Origin: Acidobacteria bacterium RIFCSPLOWO2_12_FULL_65_11
GTDB taxonomy: Bacteria > Acidobacteriota > Vicinamibacteria > Vicinamibacterales > CAVVIG01
NCBI GenBank assembly: GCA_001767495.1
Contig: MELA01000096.1
Span: 1-44,450, forward strand
Length of the DNA: 44,450 nt
Reading direction: 5' to 3'
Under the pieces are notes generated by a model that saw only the letters and a list, made by a program, of their open reading frames with translations, had not been told where the DNA came from and made no database searches. Positions 10,680 through 43,871 of this stretch are shown in pieces. Position 1 is the stretch's first letter. Each line of letters opens with the position of its first letter. Made by a program: the position numbers and the translations under genes.

Positions 10680-10709
10680 CGAATCCCAAATCCCAAATCC
10701 CAAATCCCG
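10680..10709. repeat. CCCAAAT heptamer run
   Basis: Four tandem ATCCCAA-type heptamers between the convergent carboxypeptidase and fdhE-like genes. It is the reverse-strand kin of the GGGATTC/GGGATTT runs at 13212 and 17127. Confidence 0.75.
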
Positions 10710-11716: not shown

Positions 11717-13254
11717 TGTCGATGCCGTCTCGCAAGAAGCCTGGTTCAGTTCTCATCATCGGCTCAGAGGCCGTGCCGTTCGCCAAGACCGGCGGCTTGG
11801 CTGACGTGCTCGGCACCCTGCCGCAGGCGCTGGCGCGGCTCGGCTGGGACGTCACGCTGGCGCTGCCCAGGTATCGCGGCGTCGACGAGGGATCGCTCGC
11901 CGCACGGTTTCCGCTGACCGTCGGCGGCTATACGCGCGAGGTCGGCATCTTCGAGGTCTCTCTTGCAGGCGGCTCGCGCGCGTGGCTCGTTGACTGTCCC
12001 GATGTGTTCGACCGCGAGGGAATCTATGGCCCTGGCGGCGGGGAGTACTCGGACAACCCTCGTCGATTTGCCATGCTCGTGCGCGCCGCGCTGGAGTTCG
12101 CGGCGCTCCGCGGGGCCCGCCCTTCGGTGGTGCACGCCCACGACTGGCAGGCAGGTCTGGCGCCCGTCTATCTCAAGACGCGGTACGCGACACACTCGGT
12201 CCTCGGCGGGATACCGAGCGTCTTTACGATTCACAATCTTGCGTATCAGGGTTTGTTCGACGCCGACTGGCTCCCGCGGCTCGACCTCGGCTGGGATCTC
12301 TTCTCGATCGATCGTCTCGAGTACTGGGGTCGCATCAGCTTGCTCAAGGGCGGCATCAACGAGGCCGAGGTCGTCACGGCCGTTAGTCCCAGGTATGCCG
12401 AGGAGATCCAGACGCCGGAGTTCGGCTTCGGCTTCGACGGCATTCTGCGTCGGCGCCGCGCGGATCTTGCCGGCGTGCTCAACGGCATCGACGTCGAGCG
12501 GTGGGACCCCGAACACGATCCGTTCCTGCCCCGGCCTTACAGCGCGGACGATCTCTCGGGGAAGGATTCGGCCAAAGCCGAAGTGCTCGTGCGCTATCGG
12601 CTCGCGACCGACGGGGCAACGCTCAAGCGCCCGCTCGTGGCCATGATCTCCCGCATGATCGATCAGAAAGGATTCGATCTGATGGCCGCGCTGGCCGACG
12701 AGCTGCCGCGACTCGAGGCGACGTTCATCGTGCTCGGCACGGGCGAAACGCGGTATCAGGACCTGTGGACGGGCTTGGCTGCCCGTCATCCAGATCGCAT
12801 CGGCGCACACATCGGCTTTGACGAAGCGCTTGCGCATCTCATCGAGGCGGGCGCAGACATCTTCCTCATGCCGTCACGTTTTGAGCCCTGCGGCCTCAGT
12901 CAGATGTACAGCCTGAGATACGGCACCGTGCCGGTGGTGCGGGCGGTCGGCGGACTTGCGGACACGGTCGTTGATTACGCGCCTTCGCGCCGCTTCGGTG
13001 GTGCAAGCTCTTCGGGGCACAAGAAGTCAACTGGGTTCGTATTCCAGGAGTACACGCCGCAAGGTGTGCTTGAGGCCTTGAACCGGGCGCTGGCGCTCTA
13101 CGCCGACCCAAAGCGCTGGAAGGCGCTCCAGCGCGCTGGCATGGCGCAGGATCATTCCTGGGACCGTTCGGCCCGAGAGTACGTCAGAATATACGAGCGC
13201 GCCATTAAGAAGGGATTCGGGATTCGGGATTCGGGATTTGGGGTTAGGGGTTAG
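11713..13254 (+). CDS. glgA: glycogen synthase (ADP-glucose, GT5)
   Basis: 513 residues. Transfers glucose from ADP-glucose to the alpha-1,4-glucan chain. The N-terminal KTGGLADV ADP-glucose motif, HAHDWQAGL, TIHNLAYQG, AVSPRYAEEI, GVLNGID, ISRMIDQKGFDL and RFEPCGLSQMYSLRYG are all in order across the two Rossmann domains. ATG 11713 or ATG 11722 are both possible; the first lies on the dispersed repeat. The final residues GFGIRDSGFGVRG encode the heptamer repeat at 13212 and are not part of the enzyme. No glgB/glgC nearby, so it is separate from a glycogen operon. Confidence 0.95.
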   Translation: MLSMPSRKKPGSVLIIGSEAVPFAKTGGLADVLGTLPQALARLGWDVTLALPRYRGVDEGSLAARFPLTVGGYTREVGIFEVSLAGGSRAWLVDCPDVFDREGIYGPGGGEYSDNPRRFAMLVRAALEFAALRGARPSVVHAHDWQAGLAPVYLKTRYATHSVLGGIPSVFTIHNLAYQGLFDADWLPRLDLGWDLFSIDRLEYWGRISLLKGGINEAEVVTAVSPRYAEEIQTPEFGFGFDGILRRRRADLAGVLNGIDVERWDPEHDPFLPRPYSADDLSGKDSAKAEVLVRYRLATDGATLKRPLVAMISRMIDQKGFDLMAALADELPRLEATFIVLGTGETRYQDLWTGLAARHPDRIGAHIGFDEALAHLIEAGADIFLMPSRFEPCGLSQMYSLRYGTVPVVRAVGGLADTVVDYAPSRRFGGASSSGHKKSTGFVFQEYTPQGVLEALNRALALYADPKRWKALQRAGMAQDHSWDRSAREYVRIYERAIKKGFGIRDSGFGVRG

Positions 13255-13259
13255 GGGTT
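13212..13259. repeat. GGGATTC heptamer run merging into GGGGTTA repeats
   Basis: Three GGGATTC units, one GGGATTT and then GGGGTTA units. The first part is translated as the C-terminal tail of GlgA and the run supplies its TAG stop. Confidence 0.8.
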
Positions 13260-13284
13260 CGATTGGCGACCGAAAGAGAGACAC

Positions 13285-13615: not shown

Positions 13616-14536
13616 GTGAGCACCCGTCACGTTGTCATCGTGGGATCCGGCCCGGCCGGACTGACCGCGGCGCTCTACGCCGCGCGCGCCAATCTGCAGC
13701 CGCTCGTCATCGAAGGCCTCGAAGCGGGTGGTCAGCTGATGCTGACGACGATGGTCGAGAACTTTCCTGGATATCGCGACGGCGTCCTGGGCCCCGACCT
13801 GATGGCTGAGATGCGCGCGCAAGCCGGAAGGTTTGGCGCGGAAATCGTCCAAGGGAATGTCACGCTCGTCGACACGCGCGTACGGCCGTTCGTCGTTCGC
13901 ACGTCGGAGGCCGAATACTCGGCGCGCGCGCTCATCATCGCGACCGGGGCGTCGGCGCGCATGCTTGGCCTGCCGTCGGAACGAACGCTGATGGGGCACG
14001 GCGTCTCGACGTGTGCGACCTGCGACGGATATTTCTTCCGAGGTCAGGAGATCGCCGTCGTTGGCGGCGGAGATTCGGCGATGGAAGAAGCCATCTTCCT
14101 GACGAAGTTCGCGAGCAAGGTCACCGTTGTTCATCGTCGCGACGCGCTGCGGGCGTCCAAGATCATGCAGGACAAGGCCCGGGCCAACAGCAACATCGCG
14201 TGGCTGTTGGACACCGAGGTCGAGGAGATTCAGGATACCGGCAAGGGAGCAGTGACGGCGATGGTCGTGCGGAACAGCAAGACCGGCGCCCGCGCGGTCG
14301 TGCCCGTCAGTGGCGTATTTGTCGCCATCGGCCACACCCCGAACACGTCACTCCTTAAAGGCCAGCTCGAGATGGACGCCAACGGCTACATCGTCACGCA
14401 TGACGGCGTGCAGACGACCGTCCCTGGCGTGTTTGCGTGCGGCGACGTGCAGGATCACGTCTACCGGCAGGCGATCACGGCGGCGGGCACTGGGTGCATG
14501 GCCGCGCTCGACGCGGAACGTTACCTCGAAACTTAA
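13616..14536 (+). CDS. trxB: thioredoxin reductase
   Basis: 306 residues, FAD- and NADPH-dependent. GSGPAGLTAALYAARA is the FAD site, CATCDGYFF holds the redox CxxC, VGGGDSAMEEA is the NADPH site, and FACGDVQD is the C-terminal FAD motif. GTG 13616 immediately follows trxA (one-base gap) and shares its upstream AGGTG-rich sequence. Length is typical of the bacterial low-molecular-weight type. Confidence 0.97.
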   Translation: MSTRHVVIVGSGPAGLTAALYAARANLQPLVIEGLEAGGQLMLTTMVENFPGYRDGVLGPDLMAEMRAQAGRFGAEIVQGNVTLVDTRVRPFVVRTSEAEYSARALIIATGASARMLGLPSERTLMGHGVSTCATCDGYFFRGQEIAVVGGGDSAMEEAIFLTKFASKVTVVHRRDALRASKIMQDKARANSNIAWLLDTEVEEIQDTGKGAVTAMVVRNSKTGARAVVPVSGVFVAIGHTPNTSLLKGQLEMDANGYIVTHDGVQTTVPGVFACGDVQDHVYRQAITAAGTGCMAALDAERYLET

Positions 14537-14641
14537 AAGCGAAAACTGAAAAGTTAAAAGGACGCAGTCGTAGTGTCCGCCTTCAGGCGGACGTCCGGCT
14601 GAAGCCGGACACTACTTTTAAGTTTTCACTTTTAACTTCTT
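14536..14641. repeat. AT-rich inverted repeat enclosing a REP-like pair
   Basis: AAAAGCGAAAACTGAAAAGT with a run of A-rich bases on the left is mirrored by CTTTTAAGTTTTCACTTTT on the right, between the convergent trxB and kinase genes. It could form a long stem and end transcription from both sides. Similar AT-rich sequence recurs at 41457-41545. Confidence 0.6.
14570..14615. repeat. REP-like hairpin pair, outward GTAG feet
   Basis: Two hairpins back to back: GTCCGCC-TTCA-GGCGGAC followed by GTCCGGCTGAAGCCGGAC, bounded by GTAGT and ACTAC. The first stem differs from the family by a compensated pair (C-G for G-C), so pairing is kept. Confidence 0.85.
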
Positions 14642-17399
14642 ACTTCCGAAGGGTAGCCGCCCAGTTGACGACGAGGCTGATCGGTGGGACTGAGGTGGGT
14701 TGCTCCTGCCGCCTGATGACGAGAAACCGCTGGCCGTCTGGTGAGACGTCGTAGAAATACCGAGCTCCTCCTGGACGCAGGTCGAACAGCGACTTCACCG
14801 GGCCGACCTCGAAGTTTGCACCTTGGCCGTTCACGGTAGCTGCCATGAGCTTATTGTCGGGCGCCACATAGAAGATCTCTGTGCCGTTGCGGCGCCATCG
14901 CGGCCAATGTCCTCCGGCAGTTGAAATTAGCACCTTCCCACCCGGTCCCGGAAACGGCGTCACGTAGACTTCATAGCGCCCGGATTCGTCAGAAGGAAAC
15001 GCGACCCACCGTCCGTCCGGAGAGAACTTGCCGACGTCCTCGTTAAAGCGACTTTGCAGAAACGGGTAGGGCTTCCGATCGCCAAAGAGCGGCAGGACCC
15101 ACAAATCGCTGCTGCGTGTCGCTGGATTCACGCCGATGGCATAGAGAATGAACCGGCCGTCTGAGGACCAACTCTCCGGATACTTGACCGAGGCATCGTC
15201 CAGTAGCACGTCCTCGTTGCCGGCTCCATTGGACGCCTTCCGGTAAAGGTCAAATCCCGTTCTTGGGCGAGCTCGGTTGAAGGCGACGCGGCTGCCGTCA
15301 GGGGACCAAGCCGACGTGATTTCGCTGGCTGGGTCGGATGTGAAGCGCGTTCGCAAACGGCGCGCCACATCGACGATCCAGATGTCGCTCGAGCGGTTTG
15401 CGGCCGCGGGGTCGATGACGCTGACGGCCGCGCGGGTTCCGTCCGGAGACACCTCGAGGTCGCCGTTGGCCCCTTGATCTCCGAGGACGCCGATTTGCGC
15501 GCCGACGCGGTCGAACCAGACGAGCGGCGATGTTGTCGACGGTGAAGCAGTCGCGTAAACGAGGGCGCCCGTGTCTGAGACTGAAAATGCGCCGGCTCGA
15601 AATACGCCAGTGCCAGTGACCACCCCTTCCGCCACGGGTGTCGGTTCGCCCGTCAACGTCAGACCATCGGCGTCAAACGGCTGGGCCATCAGGGTGGCCT
15701 CGCGCATAAACAGCAGAAAGCCTTGTGCGTATTTCGCGTTGCCACCGCCGCTCATCAGGCGTGTCCGATCCATCGAATCGAGCGAGCCGACGTACACGGC
15801 GCTCTCATTTCGAGCAGAGGCCGTATAGAGAAAGTGCCGGCCGTCTGGCAGAAAAGACGGCAACCGGTGGCTGTCTTCACCGACCCTATCGTCCAGCGCC
15901 GTGACGGCAGATGATGTTCCACCGGCTGCCGATACACCGTAAATCGGGCCCCCTGTCGGCTTGAAGAGGATGACGTCATCTCGATTCCAGGTGCCGCCAT
16001 CAACTCCGGCCGTATCGGCGAGCGTGCGGGCCGAACCGCCCGACACGTCAATTCTCTTGAGCTTGCCACCCGCGGTGAACGCGATGAAGCGACTGTCCGG
16101 CGACCAGAAGGGCCCGCCGGCACCCTCCGTGCCGGCCAGCGGTTGTGCCGTGAGGCCGTCGAGCACGCGTACCCACAAGACGACGTGTCCGTTTGCGTCC
16201 GGTGCGACAAATACCAAACTCCGACCGTCAGGTGAGATCGCCAGGCGAAGGGGCGGGATACCGCTCAGCTCCGCTGGCGGCAAGATCGTGCTGCGGTAGA
16301 CGTTCGGGTCCACGGGCGAACGACCGAGATACATTCGGCCACCAAGCGTCAGCGTCGTGACGAAGAACACGGCAGCTGCAACCCAGGGTGCCCACTTGTG
16401 GGGGCCGGTCTTCAGACCGGCCCGTCCCTGCGACGCGACGGCGGGCGCATTCGGCTGCGAGCCAGATTCAGCGATCCACTTCAGCTCGTCATGCAAGTCC
16501 TTCGCGCTCTGCCAGCGCTCGTCCGGTTCCTTCGCCAGACATTTCTGCACGACCCGATCGAGCGCGGCCGGCGTCAGTGGCTGCAGGCTCGCCATCGGCG
16601 GCGGGTCGACGCCCATGATGGCGTGAATCAGGCTCGCCTGGCTCTTGCCCTCGAACGCCCTCTTCCCGGTCACCATCTCGTAAAGGACGGCGCCAAACGC
16701 GAAGATGTCCGTGCGCGCGTCGGCGTCGTGACCTTCGAGCTGTTCCGGAGCCATGTACTGAAAGGTGCCGAGGATTGTTCCCTGTGCCGTCAGAGACGCG
16801 CTCATCGTCGGTATCGCCGAAGGGTCCGGCTGAAGCCGGACACTACGATCCCCAGCGGGGACTCGTGGCCGTACGTAGTGTCCGGCTTTAGCCGGACCTG
16901 TTTTCGCCAGTCCAAAGTCAAGGAGCTTGGACCCCGCCTTCGTCAACATAACGTTGCCGGGTTTCACGTCGCGATGCGTAATGCCCGCGCGGTCGGCCGC
17001 GGAAAGCGCGTCGGCCATCTCGATCGCAATTCGTAGCGCTTGCTCGATCGGGAGCGCGCCCTTCTTCAGGCGCTCGGCGAGCGTCTCGCCCTCGAGGTAT
17101 TCCATCACAAGGAAGCGAATCGACTCGGGATGCGGGACTTGGGATTCGGGATTCGGCACTTCGCCGATGTCGTACAGAGTGCAGATGTGCGGGTGATTGA
17201 GCTGGGAAATTGCCTTCGCTTCGCGCGTGAAGCGCTCGCGGAACACGGGATCGCCCGCGAGAGCGGCAGGCAGGACCTTGATCGCGACCGTGCGCCCGAG
17301 CCGCGTGTCGCGCGCCTTGTAGACCTCGCCCATCCCGCCCGCGCCGATGGCGTTGAGGATTTCGTACGGGCCGAGGCGATTACCTGGCTGGAGTGCCAT
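14640..17399 (-). CDS. Ser/Thr protein kinase with C-terminal PD40/WD40-like beta-propeller
   Basis: 919 residues. Kinase domain 12-310: glycine loop GAGGMGEV, Lys41 (VAIK), Glu60, HRD at 143-145, DFG at 161-163, APE at 217-219. A transmembrane helix follows (WVAAAVFFVTTLTLGG), then an extracytoplasmic propeller with many SPDG/SPDSRF repeats. Likely a membrane sensor kinase phosphorylating proteins on Ser/Thr. Three repeat-derived insertions stand out: residues 82-93 from a heptamer run, about 167-192 from two REP-like hairpins inside the activation segment, and RAGLKTGPHK before the membrane helix from another hairpin. The frame stays open through all of them. Monocistronic, convergent with trxB. 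Confidence 0.93.
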   Translation of the reverse strand: MALQPGNRLGPYEILNAIGAGGMGEVYKARDTRLGRTVAIKVLPAALAGDPVFRERFTREAKAISQLNHPHICTLYDIGEVPNPESQVPHPESIRFLVMEYLEGETLAERLKKGALPIEQALRIAIEMADALSAADRAGITHRDVKPGNVMLTKAGSKLLDFGLAKTGPAKAGHYVRPRVPAGDRSVRLQPDPSAIPTMSASLTAQGTILGTFQYMAPEQLEGHDADARTDIFAFGAVLYEMVTGKRAFEGKSQASLIHAIMGVDPPPMASLQPLTPAALDRVVQKCLAKEPDERWQSAKDLHDELKWIAESGSQPNAPAVASQGRAGLKTGPHKWAPWVAAAVFFVTTLTLGGRMYLGRSPVDPNVYRSTILPPAELSGIPPLRLAISPDGRSLVFVAPDANGHVVLWVRVLDGLTAQPLAGTEGAGGPFWSPDSRFIAFTAGGKLKRIDVSGGSARTLADTAGVDGGTWNRDDVILFKPTGGPIYGVSAAGGTSSAVTALDDRVGEDSHRLPSFLPDGRHFLYTASARNESAVYVGSLDSMDRTRLMSGGGNAKYAQGFLLFMREATLMAQPFDADGLTLTGEPTPVAEGVVTGTGVFRAGAFSVSDTGALVYATASPSTTSPLVWFDRVGAQIGVLGDQGANGDLEVSPDGTRAAVSVIDPAAANRSSDIWIVDVARRLRTRFTSDPASEITSAWSPDGSRVAFNRARPRTGFDLYRKASNGAGNEDVLLDDASVKYPESWSSDGRFILYAIGVNPATRSSDLWVLPLFGDRKPYPFLQSRFNEDVGKFSPDGRWVAFPSDESGRYEVYVTPFPGPGGKVLISTAGGHWPRWRRNGTEIFYVAPDNKLMAATVNGQGANFEVGPVKSLFDLRPGGARYFYDVSPDGQRFLVIRRQEQPTSVPPISLVVNWAATLRK
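16402..16423. repeat. second-class hairpin (GGTCTTCAGACC core)
   Basis: GGGCCGGTC-TTCA-GACCGGCCC is a perfect 9-bp stem within the kinase gene, just before its transmembrane helix. A relative lies at 40829-40850. Confidence 0.75.
16824..16897. repeat. REP-like hairpin pair inside the kinase gene
   Basis: Hairpin GTCCGGCTGAAGCCGGAC plus ACTAC (16824-16846) and GTAGT plus GTCCGGCTTTAGCCGGAC-type hairpin (16875-16897), with feet facing inward and a 28-bp spacer. The whole unit is read in frame as part of the activation segment. Confidence 0.9.
17127..17157. repeat. GGGATTC heptamer run inside the kinase gene
   Basis: Heptamers GGGATGC, GGGACTT, GGGATTC, GGGATTC are read on the minus strand as NPESQVPHPES, a surface-loop insertion in the kinase N-lobe between YDIGE and IRFLVMEYLEG. 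Confidence 0.75.
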
Positions 17400-25875: not shown

Positions 25876-26444
25876 CCGTGCTGACGCTCGCCAATCAGAT
25901 GACGCTGCTCCGCATGCTGCTGATTCCGGCGTTCGTCATCCTGGTCGTGTACGGGTATCTGGGCTGGGCGCTCGGGGTGTTCGTGACGGCCGGCATTACC
26001 GACGGCCTCGACGGCCTGCTCGCACGTCGCGCCGGGCAGAAGACGAGCCTGGGCGCATGGCTCGATCCGATGGCCGACAAGCTGCTCCTCGTGAGCACGT
26101 TCGTCGTGCTGACGGTGCCGGGGCTTGGGCTCCAGAACCGCCTGCCTATCTGGCTGACCGTGCTCATCATCAGCCGGGACATCGTGATCGTGATGACGGT
26201 GGCGATCGTGAATCTCGCCATCGGGCGCCGCACGTTCCAGCCCTCAATCTTCGGCAAGATCGCCACGGCCATCTACATTCTCACGGCCGTCGTGGCCATG
26301 CTGTTCAACTACCTCGGTTACCATTCACGCGTCTTCGACGTGTTCGTGTGGGCCTCGCTCGGAATCACCCTCATCTCGAGCCTCCATTACATCTGGCACG
26401 CCGCCCGGATCATCGACGCGCCTCAGCGGACATCTCTGCCATGA
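25872..26444 (+). CDS. pgsA: CDP-diacylglycerol-glycerol-3-phosphate phosphatidyltransferase
   Basis: 190 residues, integral membrane protein of phospholipid synthesis that makes phosphatidylglycerol phosphate. The CDP-alcohol phosphotransferase motif is complete: DGLLARRAGQKTSLGAWLD then PMADK (D-G-x2-A-R-x8-G-x3-D-x3-D). About five to six hydrophobic helices. ATG 25872 chosen because the product then begins MTVLTLANQMTLLRMLLIP, the normal family start; the longer frame to 25743 is hflX shadow. It overlaps the cyclophilin gene by four bases. Confidence 0.93.
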   Translation: MTVLTLANQMTLLRMLLIPAFVILVVYGYLGWALGVFVTAGITDGLDGLLARRAGQKTSLGAWLDPMADKLLLVSTFVVLTVPGLGLQNRLPIWLTVLIISRDIVIVMTVAIVNLAIGRRTFQPSIFGKIATAIYILTAVVAMLFNYLGYHSRVFDVFVWASLGITLISSLHYIWHAARIIDAPQRTSLP

Positions 26445-27640
26445 AGCGAATGTTGATCTGCTGTGTGTTGTTGTTGATCACGGTCCGGCTGAAGCCGGAC
26501 GCCACGTCTGGGGTTGTCGTGTCTGGGGTTGTCGTGTCTGGGGTTGTCGTATCTGGGGTTGTAGTGTCCGGCTTTAGCCGGACCGTCGGGTACGTAGTGT
26601 CCGGCTTCAGCCGGACCGTGTACGCCCAGACGCCGCCCAAGCAGGCTGTCGTCGAGACCACTGCTGGGACATTCGTCATCGACCTGACGGTCGAGACCGC
26701 GCCGAATCAGACGACCTACTTCATGAAGGTCGCGGGCGAGGGTGGGTACGACGGCACGATCTTTCACCGCATGATCAGGCGCGGTGTTGTCCAGGGCGGG
26801 GATCCGTTGACGAAAGACCCCTCGAAGCGAGCGTCGTACGGCAGTGGCGGTCTGAACGCCGTGAAGGCGGAAGCGCGGGCGCCAAGGGTCACGCGCGGTT
26901 CGGTGGCCGCCGTCACGGTTCCGGGGATGCCCGACAGCGCGGGGTCCCAGTTTTTCGTCGCCCTGGCGGACCAGCCGGCACTCGACGGTCAGTACACGGT
27001 CTTTGGGCGCATCTCCGACGGCATGGAAGTCCTGTTCAAGATCTCTGAGACGCCTGTGGACGCGACCGGGCTTGCCGTTGAGCGGGTCGAAATCACACGA
27101 GTGACGATCCGCGATACGCCGCCCGAACCGTTTGTGACCGAGACGGTCCAGGAACTGGGCGGGTACCGCGCCGTGCTCGAGACCGCGGCCGGACCGATCA
27201 CGGTTGAATTCTTCGTCGACAAGGCGCCGGCGACCGTCCGCCAGTTCATGCGACTGGCCGCCGCCGGCGTCTACGACGGCATGGCGTTTCACCGTGTGGC
27301 GCCGGGGTTCGTGATTCAGACCGGCTTCATCGGAAGCCGGGCGACACCCCTCACTGAGAAGCAGCAGACACTGGTCCGCAATCTGCCGCCGGAATTCAAC
27401 GACACTCGGCACGTAAAGGGCATCCTGTCGATGGCGCGCGGGGAAGATCCGGCGAGTGCGACGACGTCGTTCTTCATTGTCACCGCCCCGTCGGCAGCGC
27501 TCGACGGCCAGTACACCGCGTTTGGCCGCGTGGTCGACGGCCTGGCGGCCGTCGACGCGATCGAGGCAACGCCTCGCAATGGCGAGACGCCGACAAGTCG
27601 GATTGAACTGAAGACCGTGCGGATCGAGAAAAAGCAGTAG
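26441..27640 (+). CDS. double cyclophilin-type peptidyl-prolyl isomerase, exported
   Basis: 399 residues. After a short hydrophobic leader (MKRMLICCVLLLIT) comes a repeat-derived segment to about residue 60, then YAQTPPKQ where a signal peptide would normally end. Domain 1 (about 68-225) has FHRMIRRGVVQGGDP and SQFFVALADQPALDGQYTVFG; domain 2 (about 240-395) has FHRVAPGFVIQTG, GILSMARG and TSFFIVTAPSAALDG. Each folds proteins by Pro isomerisation, probably in the periplasm. The insert (VRLKPDAT, four VVVSG units, two SGFSRT units) sits between the hydrophobic core and the presumed cleavage site. Start overlaps pgsA (ATGA). Confidence 0.9.
   Translation: MKRMLICCVLLLITVRLKPDATSGVVVSGVVVSGVVVSGVVVSGFSRTVGYVVSGFSRTVYAQTPPKQAVVETTAGTFVIDLTVETAPNQTTYFMKVAGEGGYDGTIFHRMIRRGVVQGGDPLTKDPSKRASYGSGGLNAVKAEARAPRVTRGSVAAVTVPGMPDSAGSQFFVALADQPALDGQYTVFGRISDGMEVLFKISETPVDATGLAVERVEITRVTIRDTPPEPFVTETVQELGGYRAVLETAAGPITVEFFVDKAPATVRQFMRLAAAGVYDGMAFHRVAPGFVIQTGFIGSRATPLTEKQQTLVRNLPPEFNDTRHVKGILSMARGEDPASATTSFFIVTAPSAALDGQYTAFGRVVDGLAAVDAIEATPRNGETPTSRIELKTVRIEKKQ
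26483..26616. repeat. REP-like cluster and 15-bp tandem array in the cyclophilin leader
   Basis: Hairpins at 26483-26500, 26561-26583 and 26594-26616 surround four copies of a 15-bp unit (GTCTGGGGTTGTCGT) at 26506-26565. All keep the reading frame open. The 15-bp unit may have arisen from a degraded REP foot. Confidence 0.9.
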
Positions 27641-27647
27641 ACGAGAA

Positions 27648-27670
27648 GTAGTGTCCGGCTTCAGCCGGAC
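27648..27670. repeat. REP-like hairpin, single copy
   Basis: GTAGT plus GTCCGGCTTCAGCCGGAC in the gap between the convergent cyclophilin gene and the gene ending at 27679; it may act as a transcription terminator. Confidence 0.88.
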
Positions 27671-27678
27671 GGCGGGTG

Positions 27679-27909
27679 CTACCCTGGCAAGCGCGTCACC
27701 TTGACGACGACGCCGACGAGGTACTCGACCTGAATGCGATCGCCGGGTTCGAGCGTGTGGCCGGCGATGGCCTCGGGCCCCACGCGCGCGGCATTCAATT
27801 GCTCCTCGGGATCGTCGAGATGAGTGAAGACGATCTCCCACGAGGGCTGCCCGTGAATGCTGATCGCCTGAATCCTCTTCAGCACCGCGTCGCGCGTACC
27901 TTTTAACAT
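27679..27909 (-). CDS. hypothetical protein downstream of dinB
   Basis: 76 residues from ATG 27909, which overlaps the dinB stop (ATGA). Sequence: LKGTRDAVLKRIQAISIHGQ, then WEIVFTHLDD and GHTLEPGDRIQVEYLVGVVV KVTRLPG at the end, suggesting a small beta-rich fold. No family recognised. Tight coupling suggests co-expression with DNA polymerase IV, but a functional link is only contextual. Confidence 0.6.
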   Translation of the reverse strand: MLKGTRDAVLKRIQAISIHGQPSWEIVFTHLDDPEEQLNAARVGPEAIAGHTLEPGDRIQVEYLVGVVVKVTRLPG

Positions 27910-43764: not shown

Positions 43765-43871
43765 ATTGTTGATTGATGATTGTTGATTGTTGATTGCGGA
43801 ATAGAGAATTGCCGATTGCTGATTGACTGCGCGCCCTTCCAATCAGCAATCAACAATCCGCAATCAGCAAT
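43765..43871. repeat. TTGATTG-type repeats forming an inverted repeat
   Basis: Left half has TTGTTGATTG units, right half has CAATCAGCAATCAACAAT units, i.e. the reverse complement. It separates the convergent priA and M50 genes and could terminate both. Low GC against the surrounding sequence. Confidence 0.75.

Follow-up and report, generated by a model that had tools for sequence, protein, structure and literature searches.

GTAG-tagged REP palindromes of a RAYT-associated family in the putative signal peptide of a cyclophilin from Vicinamibacterales

The window (the whole stretch of 44,450 nt that was analysed, from Acidobacteria bacterium RIFCSPLOWO2_12_FULL_65_11) carries a gene encoding a two-domain cyclophilin with a cluster of repeats near its 5' end (Table 1). 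The protein matches PF00160 over two domains (E value of 1e-76 for the whole protein), the first of which covers residues 71 to 222. Its six best organism-named matches (47–71% identity) belong to two Vicinamibacterales, three Acidobacteria and one entry labelled Acidimicrobiia. The upstream gene overlapped by the start codon (ATGA) encodes a CDP-alcohol phosphatidyltransferase. From the ATG, the frame reads MKRMLICCVLLLIT-VRLKPDATSG-(VVVSG)x4, passes through the whole cluster and continues into both cyclophilin domains. The resulting leader is 62 residues long, the Gln of YAQ being residue 63. According to a sequence-only reading of this DNA, three REP-like hairpins and VVVSG units in frame lie behind the hydrophobic core and ahead of the likely cleavage site. 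Both the sequence and the frame bear this out, and the span that it gave for the cluster (26483–26616) is exact, as the outermost exact palindromes lie at 26483–26500 and 26599–26616.

Table 1. Features of the cyclophilin gene and of its repeat cluster (positions in the window)
Feature	Position	Strand	Remarks
Two-domain cyclophilin (peptidyl-prolyl isomerase), 399 aa, REP-bearing leader	26441–27640	+	Translation, PF00160
Start codon, n-region MKR, hydrophobic core MLICCVLLLIT	26441–26482	+	ATG shares bases with the TGA that ends the upstream gene
Outer inverted repeat, 29-nt arms, 93% complementary	26479–26620	+	Could fold the cluster into a single mRNA hairpin
REP 1, perfect palindrome GTCCGGCTNNAGCCGGAC	26483–26500	-	Translated VRLKPD
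15-bp array, 4.2 copies, encodes (VVVSG)4	26506–26568	+	Last unit runs into REP 2
REP 2, GTAG tag (GTAGT + palindrome)	26561–26583	+	Translated VVSGFSRT; palindrome 26566–26583
REP 3, GTAG tag	26594–26616	+	Translated VVSGFSRT; palindrome 26599–26616
Cleavage-type motif VYA↓Q, downstream of the insert	26618–26629	+	Gln is residue 63; putative cleavage site
Fourth tagged REP	27648–27670	+	Exact palindrome 27653–27670; just 3' of the stop codon, an ordinary 3' intergenic place

The palindromes of REPs 1, 2 and 3 are all exact copies of the same 18-bp sequence. With up to three mismatches, this sequence has 17 matches in the window, whereas 100 shuffles average 0.67 and never give as many. For REP 1 the scan itself gave no direction; it is read as facing backwards on account of the degenerate tag (GCCAC) that comes after its palindrome. 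REP 1 and REP 2 then face each other tag to tag. REP 3 comes next, with 10 nt between its end and the Gln codon, and is the copy that aligns with the REP remnants of other genera described below. Tandem Repeats Finder (TRF) gives the 15-bp array 93% matches and a score of 112, the second highest in the window, and a 30-mer of two units has no other occurrence in the genome with up to three mismatches. The highest score belongs to a 72-bp sequence duplicated perfectly in tandem at the edge of the contig (1–144), possibly an assembly effect. The RNA of 26441–26640 has a predicted folding energy of -92.5 kcal/mol (z-score of -4.2), and 1 of 200 shuffles folds as stably. No Rfam family matched 26300–27750 at an E value of 0.1. 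Several heptamer (7-bp) arrays are also found in the window (10682–10708, 13212–13261, 14535–14560, 14614–14638, 43765–43796 and 43840–43871), two of which flank a REP pair at 14575–14610.

We then looked for this palindrome in the source genome (G000; 3.55 Mb in 153 contigs; Vicinamibacterales), where 383 exact copies were found, against none for the pattern read backwards as a control. From a sample of 1,021,074 bases (the window and 60 further stretches), whose REP density is not unbiased because contigs were picked among those with listed REPs, 199 copies with up to two mismatches were identified: 141 intergenic, 12 at gene edges and 46 within genes. Gene boundaries were taken from a codon-score caller written for this analysis, with about 16% of the sample non-coding. 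An exact GTAG tag lies on one side of 171 of these 199 palindromes, no side being assigned to the other 28, and 181 carry the tag with at least four of the five bases of GTAGT. At one stem pair, 119 copies of the same sample are canonical, 54 show the paired change GTCCGCCT..AGGCGGAC and 1 a one-sided change, as predicted by selection for the hairpin. A second stem pair gave one compensated and one one-sided change. The genome has a single gene encoding a Y1 transposase. It passes the NCBIfam model REP_Tyr_transpos (NF047646) with 90.5 bits (cut-off of 80), and its best PDB match is TnpA-REP (4er8; E value of 1.5e-5). This RAYT gene (locus L001) is flanked by tagged REPs, direct upstream (1366 and 1401) and inverted downstream (1941 and 1976), with two more REPs beside it (2011 and 2062) to which no direction was assigned. 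The hallmarks of REP/RAYT systems described in the available text of Nunvar 2010 (PMC2817692) and Di Nocera 2013 (PMC3733652) are a GTAG head, a short palindrome and a RAYT gene flanked by inverted REPs. By its tag, copy number, stem changes and RAYT gene, our palindrome is a GTAG-tagged REP of a RAYT-associated family. Among 30 RAYT loci of relatives (2–3.3 kb each), this REP was found on both sides of the gene in G010, without an assigned direction, on one side in G013 and in none of the other 28. At least one exact copy of the palindrome occurs in 31 out of 60 genomes, G000 counted, single copies meaning little because the reversed control also matches once or twice in six genomes. Some whole REPs of the source genome form tandem arrays with a BIME-like period of 32–38 bp (L162:5916–6073, L144:1947–2068, L169:502–658 and L138:12714–12813).

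The leaders of orthologous cyclophilins were also compared. From the source genome and 59 others, none of which belongs to its genus, 59 out of 60 genomes had cyclophilin matches, and we kept 30 loci, the best matches with one per genome, G000 included. A REP was found in 6 of the 30 leaders, from five genera (G000, G017, G026, G016, G023 and G012). These six match the REP at 21–26 out of 26 positions, with two loop positions left free, and for each of them none of 200 codon shuffles reaches the score. The other 24 leaders do not show a REP, with scores of 17/26 at most that are equalled by at least 34 of 200 codon shuffles; they include that of G024, a congener of G026 and G016. In the alignment, the last REP of G000 stands opposite those of G012, G023, G017 and G026. 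Moreover, 10 nt separate the end of the palindrome, or of its remnant, from the Gln codon in five of the six leaders (G000, G017, G026, G016 and G012), G023 being the exception. The remnants of these five leaders are all in one reading frame (VSGF-SRT in G000), and the leaders end with SRTVYA↓Q (G000), SRTAVA↓Q (G017), SRTVAA↓Q (G026), SLAVRT↓Q (G016) and SQTMAA↓Q (G012). The site of G016 is not canonical, since Thr and not Ala precedes Gln, and its stem is broken, yet its peptide is still hydrophobic. Of the 30 leaders, 22 have an A-Q motif, with or without a REP. The leader of G023 (L021:1501–1700) carries its own in-frame array after the REP, with units of about 24 bp of the GTCCGGGG type encoding SGxVAGxM, and a short half-stem duplication can be read by eye in that of G012.

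To return to the array of the window, its unit (GTTGTCGTGTCTGGG) shares 12 of 15 bases, in register, with the edge of the REP (GTTGTAGTGTCCGGC; P = 0.015 by unit shuffles) and lies directly ahead of the REP. This array is thus probably, from its sequence, a duplication of the REP edge. For array units in general, the resemblance to the REP edge is weak and suggestive (P = 0.006 with, and 0.07 without, the arrays that overlap a palindrome). Short arrays (period of 5–25) are 2–3 times commoner beside REPs than expected in the sampled part of the source genome: of 178 such arrays in the 1.02-Mb sample, 20 (including two from the window itself) are no more than 15 bp away from a REP. Placements matched for coding and intergenic DNA give an expectation of 6.9–8.6, and none of 1000 nulls reaches 20. 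Matched placement superseded an earlier test in which arrays were placed uniformly at random (26 of 184 arrays near a REP against 3.5 expected), since intergenic DNA is favoured by REPs and arrays alike and since some of the arrays had whole REPs inside them. In small samples of relatives with few REPs, the excess is not significant: 2 arrays near a REP against 1.7 expected in G023, none against 0.3 in G021, and 1 against 0.05 in G038, where 52 of 1000 nulls are as high. Contacts between arrays and REPs fall on the tag side in 18 cases and on the other side in 4, no side being assigned in 3. REPs form 28 tag-to-tag pairs, with spacers of 18–140 nt, and 21 tail-to-tail pairs, with spacers mostly of 5–10 nt. 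The VVVSG array would most likely have arisen within a tag-to-tag pair, the edge of the REP (linker, tag and first stem half) having been duplicated in tandem. Its growth is what would be expected from a copying strand that slipped at the hairpin, selection for the frame having kept the 15-bp unit. If slippage did cause the array, a locus that remains prone to it is plausible, the 15-bp units allowing changes without a frameshift. Outside called genes, tag-to-tag pairs with an array as spacer, different at each site, were seen at L185:2320–2421, L156:10129–10213, L158:12865–13040 and L188:14906–14997.

REPs were also found in the leaders of other genes. In the source genome, a gene with 5'-nucleotidase C-terminal and metallophosphatase domains (L162:321–1955) has the leader MKRLAAVAILAAIL-GPAEAGHY-VRH-GPAEAGHY, followed by an array of six 12-bp units before LHAQ. 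A related ORF of G017 reads GPAHAGHH..YVTSGLSRTLYAQ, with the frame and the 10-nt spacing of the cyclophilin leaders. No Pfam family matches this ORF at 1e-5, and the apparent breaks in its homology suggest that it may be disrupted or the product of misassembly. A search of 27 family genomes for REP codons of the VSGF type with the x-A-Q pattern gave three matches, namely two cyclophilins and the leader of an M28 peptidase (G010); as the pattern forces the spacing, these matches are no independent test of it. Among 31 in-gene REP clusters of the G000 sample (1.02 Mb), 25 lie in gene bodies, 3 at N-termini and 3 at starts. The three N-terminal clusters are in or just after N-termini that resemble signal peptides, one of them being that of the cyclophilin of the window. 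Since signal-peptide windows make up about 4% of the coding sequence, about 1.1 of 28 in-gene clusters would be expected there, and this sample gives no significant excess of REPs in signal peptides. The three N-terminal cases of relatives are not independent, because the stretches included contigs chosen for known matches.

How these observations are read depends on whether the leader is translated and on what it does. A start at a GTG within or after the cluster (26564, 26597 or 26618) would leave the cluster untranslated and turn its REPs into ordinary 5' extragenic repeats. Our codon-score gene caller did put the start at GTG 26564, and the available text of Di Nocera 2013 (PMC3733652) cautions that many N-terminal REPs may be extragenic. 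Such a start would, however, discard a hydrophobic export signal that is present in orthologues. The ATGA overlap with a homologous upstream gene recurs in four genera (G000, G017 at L018, G023 at L021 and G012 at L022), although it was not found at the G026 and G016 loci. The MKR-hydrophobic N-terminus likewise recurs in four genera, and the frame and spacing are kept among the REP-containing leaders. In addition, codons 5–94 of the ORF hold no in-frame ATG, the next one being codon 95, within the first domain. A downstream start, which the sequence-only reading had named as the outcome that would overturn it, is therefore disfavoured; we consider it very unlikely, and translation of the leader, as deduced from its start context, is well supported. 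At this locus, the translation context and the keeping of the frame across genera argue against the caution about N-terminal REPs. The same reading had also suggested that the leader may have become a membrane anchor, i.e. that (VVVSG)4 left it uncleaved and the cyclophilin tethered in the source species. Its hydrophobicity would be sufficient: the best 19-residue Kyte-Doolittle mean is 2.44 (residues 24–42), the highest of the 10 leaders computed, and 22 mostly hydrophobic residues in a run should be enough to span a membrane. Against an anchor, VYA↓Q comes after the array, REP 3 adds a short hydrophobic VVSGF and a six-residue c-region ahead of it, the spacing is kept in five of the six REP-bearing leaders, and orthologue leaders have A-Q regardless of the REP. 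An anchor is possible but rather unlikely, and a long cleavable signal peptide is favoured by these motifs. Read directly, the leader contains MKR, MLICCVLLLIT and VYA↓Q as candidates for the positive n-region, the hydrophobic core and the small residues at -3/-1 of a Sec signal peptide, but it is 62 residues long, and the charge of its internal RLKPD, with a hydrophobic stretch on either side, is unusual for such a peptide. The reading that we hold to be probable is that GTAG-REPs of the RAYT-linked family, presumably brought by transposition, are translated in frame within a leader that stays a cleavable Sec signal peptide. In the frame V-V-S-G-F-S-R-T, VVSGF would form the end of the hydrophobic core and SRT the polar start of the c-region, so that the leader would remain cleavable despite its length, with REP codons directly before V-Y-A↓Q, and the array would derive from duplication of the REP edge. 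As the remnants end exactly 10 nt before the codon of the post-cleavage Gln in five of six leaders, the REP most likely serves as core end and c-region. The family of the REPs, their remnants at the same spot in related genera and the resemblance of the array unit to the REP edge had no place in the sequence-only reading.

The history of the REP leaders is a separate matter, and either course is compatible with a translated, cleavable signal peptide. The REPs may have entered the leader once, in an ancestor, or repeatedly, through a hot spot or repeated selection of VVSGFSRT. On the cyclophilin gene tree, the REP leaders do not form one clade: parsimony requires five changes, at least three of them forced by well-supported branches, and a count as low is obtained in 187 of 500 label shuffles. 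A single old insertion thus needs several losses, and the tree does not support an origin in one clade, yet the identical spacing still speaks for it. Repeated entry would account for the scatter on the tree and for the REP leaders of the 5'-nucleotidase of G000, the related ORF of G017 and the M28 peptidase of G010. On the other hand, the same 10-nt spacing in G000, G017, G026, G016 and G012 is easier to obtain from one insertion followed by loss or decay, and because leaders evolve fast, the absence of a REP may itself be decay. We regard repeated entry as quite possible, though somewhat short of probable.

Selfish palindromes have mostly been described from intergenic DNA or as baggage that proteins tolerate. 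Here, a translated palindrome appears to act as the tail of a signal peptide, at one spot in five genera, and may have seeded the adjoining hydrophobic repeat. Since related genera keep remnants of the palindrome at this very spot, a working export signal seems to have incorporated DNA of a genomic parasite, and the exaptation of REPs into signals for protein targeting can be put to a direct test. A tentative and rather doubtful generalization is that REPs are recurrent raw material for signal peptides: VVSGF-SRT would by chance make a core end and a c-region, selection would keep the copies with the 10-nt spacing in unrelated secreted enzymes (cyclophilin, 5'-nucleotidase and M28 peptidase), and tag-to-tag pairs would then seed in-frame arrays. 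If this were true, the seeded arrays would let the length and hydrophobicity of the leader vary rapidly, possibly tuning export or tethering.

The family resembles GTAG-REP/RAYT systems (REPtrons, REPINs and BIMEs) as described in the available text of PMC2817692, PMC3116915 (Bertels and Rainey 2011, for REPINs), PMC3733652 and PMC8266576 (for the biochemistry of TnpA-REP), with a GTAG head, a short palindrome, hundreds of mostly extragenic copies, a RAYT gene flanked by inverted REPs, paired copies and some copies within ORFs. It differs from them by its host, a member of Vicinamibacterales (Acidobacteriota), and by tag-to-tag pairs that often enclose short tandem arrays, which we did not meet in the available parts of these descriptions. 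Where its text was available, Di Nocera 2013 (PMC3733652) names Acidobacteria only for TIR-type transposases, and a 2025 REP survey (PMC12306157) includes three Acidobacteriota genomes, the word Vicinamibacter being absent from the accessible text. Among the matches listed in open-access literature, none dealt with REPs of Vicinamibacterales or with these REP-encoded peptides. A GTAG-REP/RAYT pair is added for Acidobacteriota. The Rickettsia palindromic elements (RPEs), in the available text of PMC2229807, are likewise in-frame palindromic repeats of conserved proteins, and one of them has been shown to be translated. RPEs are, however, 105–146 bp long, whereas the units described here are RAYT-linked, of 18–23 bp, and lie at the junction between core and c-region of a signal peptide. 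According to the same source, the YPAL/RU-2 repeat in YPO1552 of Yersinia also supplies codons for part of a predicted signal peptide, but as a 168-bp element in one putative new exported protein, unlike the leader of a conserved enzyme with a position common to several genera. The BrickBuilt MITE of Porphyromonas gingivalis (PMC4596501, available text) shares a tandem array within inverted-repeat ends; its 23-nt units are always intergenic, whereas the arrays described here vary by site and that of the window is coding.

In-frame REPs and RPEs within genes are already known (PMC3733652 and PMC2229807, as far as their text was available). Other in-frame REPs were observed in the source genome. 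In the window, an ORF of 920 aa (14640–17399, minus strand), in which protein kinase and PD40 domains were recognized, contains an in-frame tag-to-tag REP pair within the stretch that matches the kinase. In-frame REPs also lie in an AICARFT/IMPCHase (PurH-type) gene (L146:6273–7886, minus strand) and in an ABC transporter gene (L148:12398–14143, minus strand).
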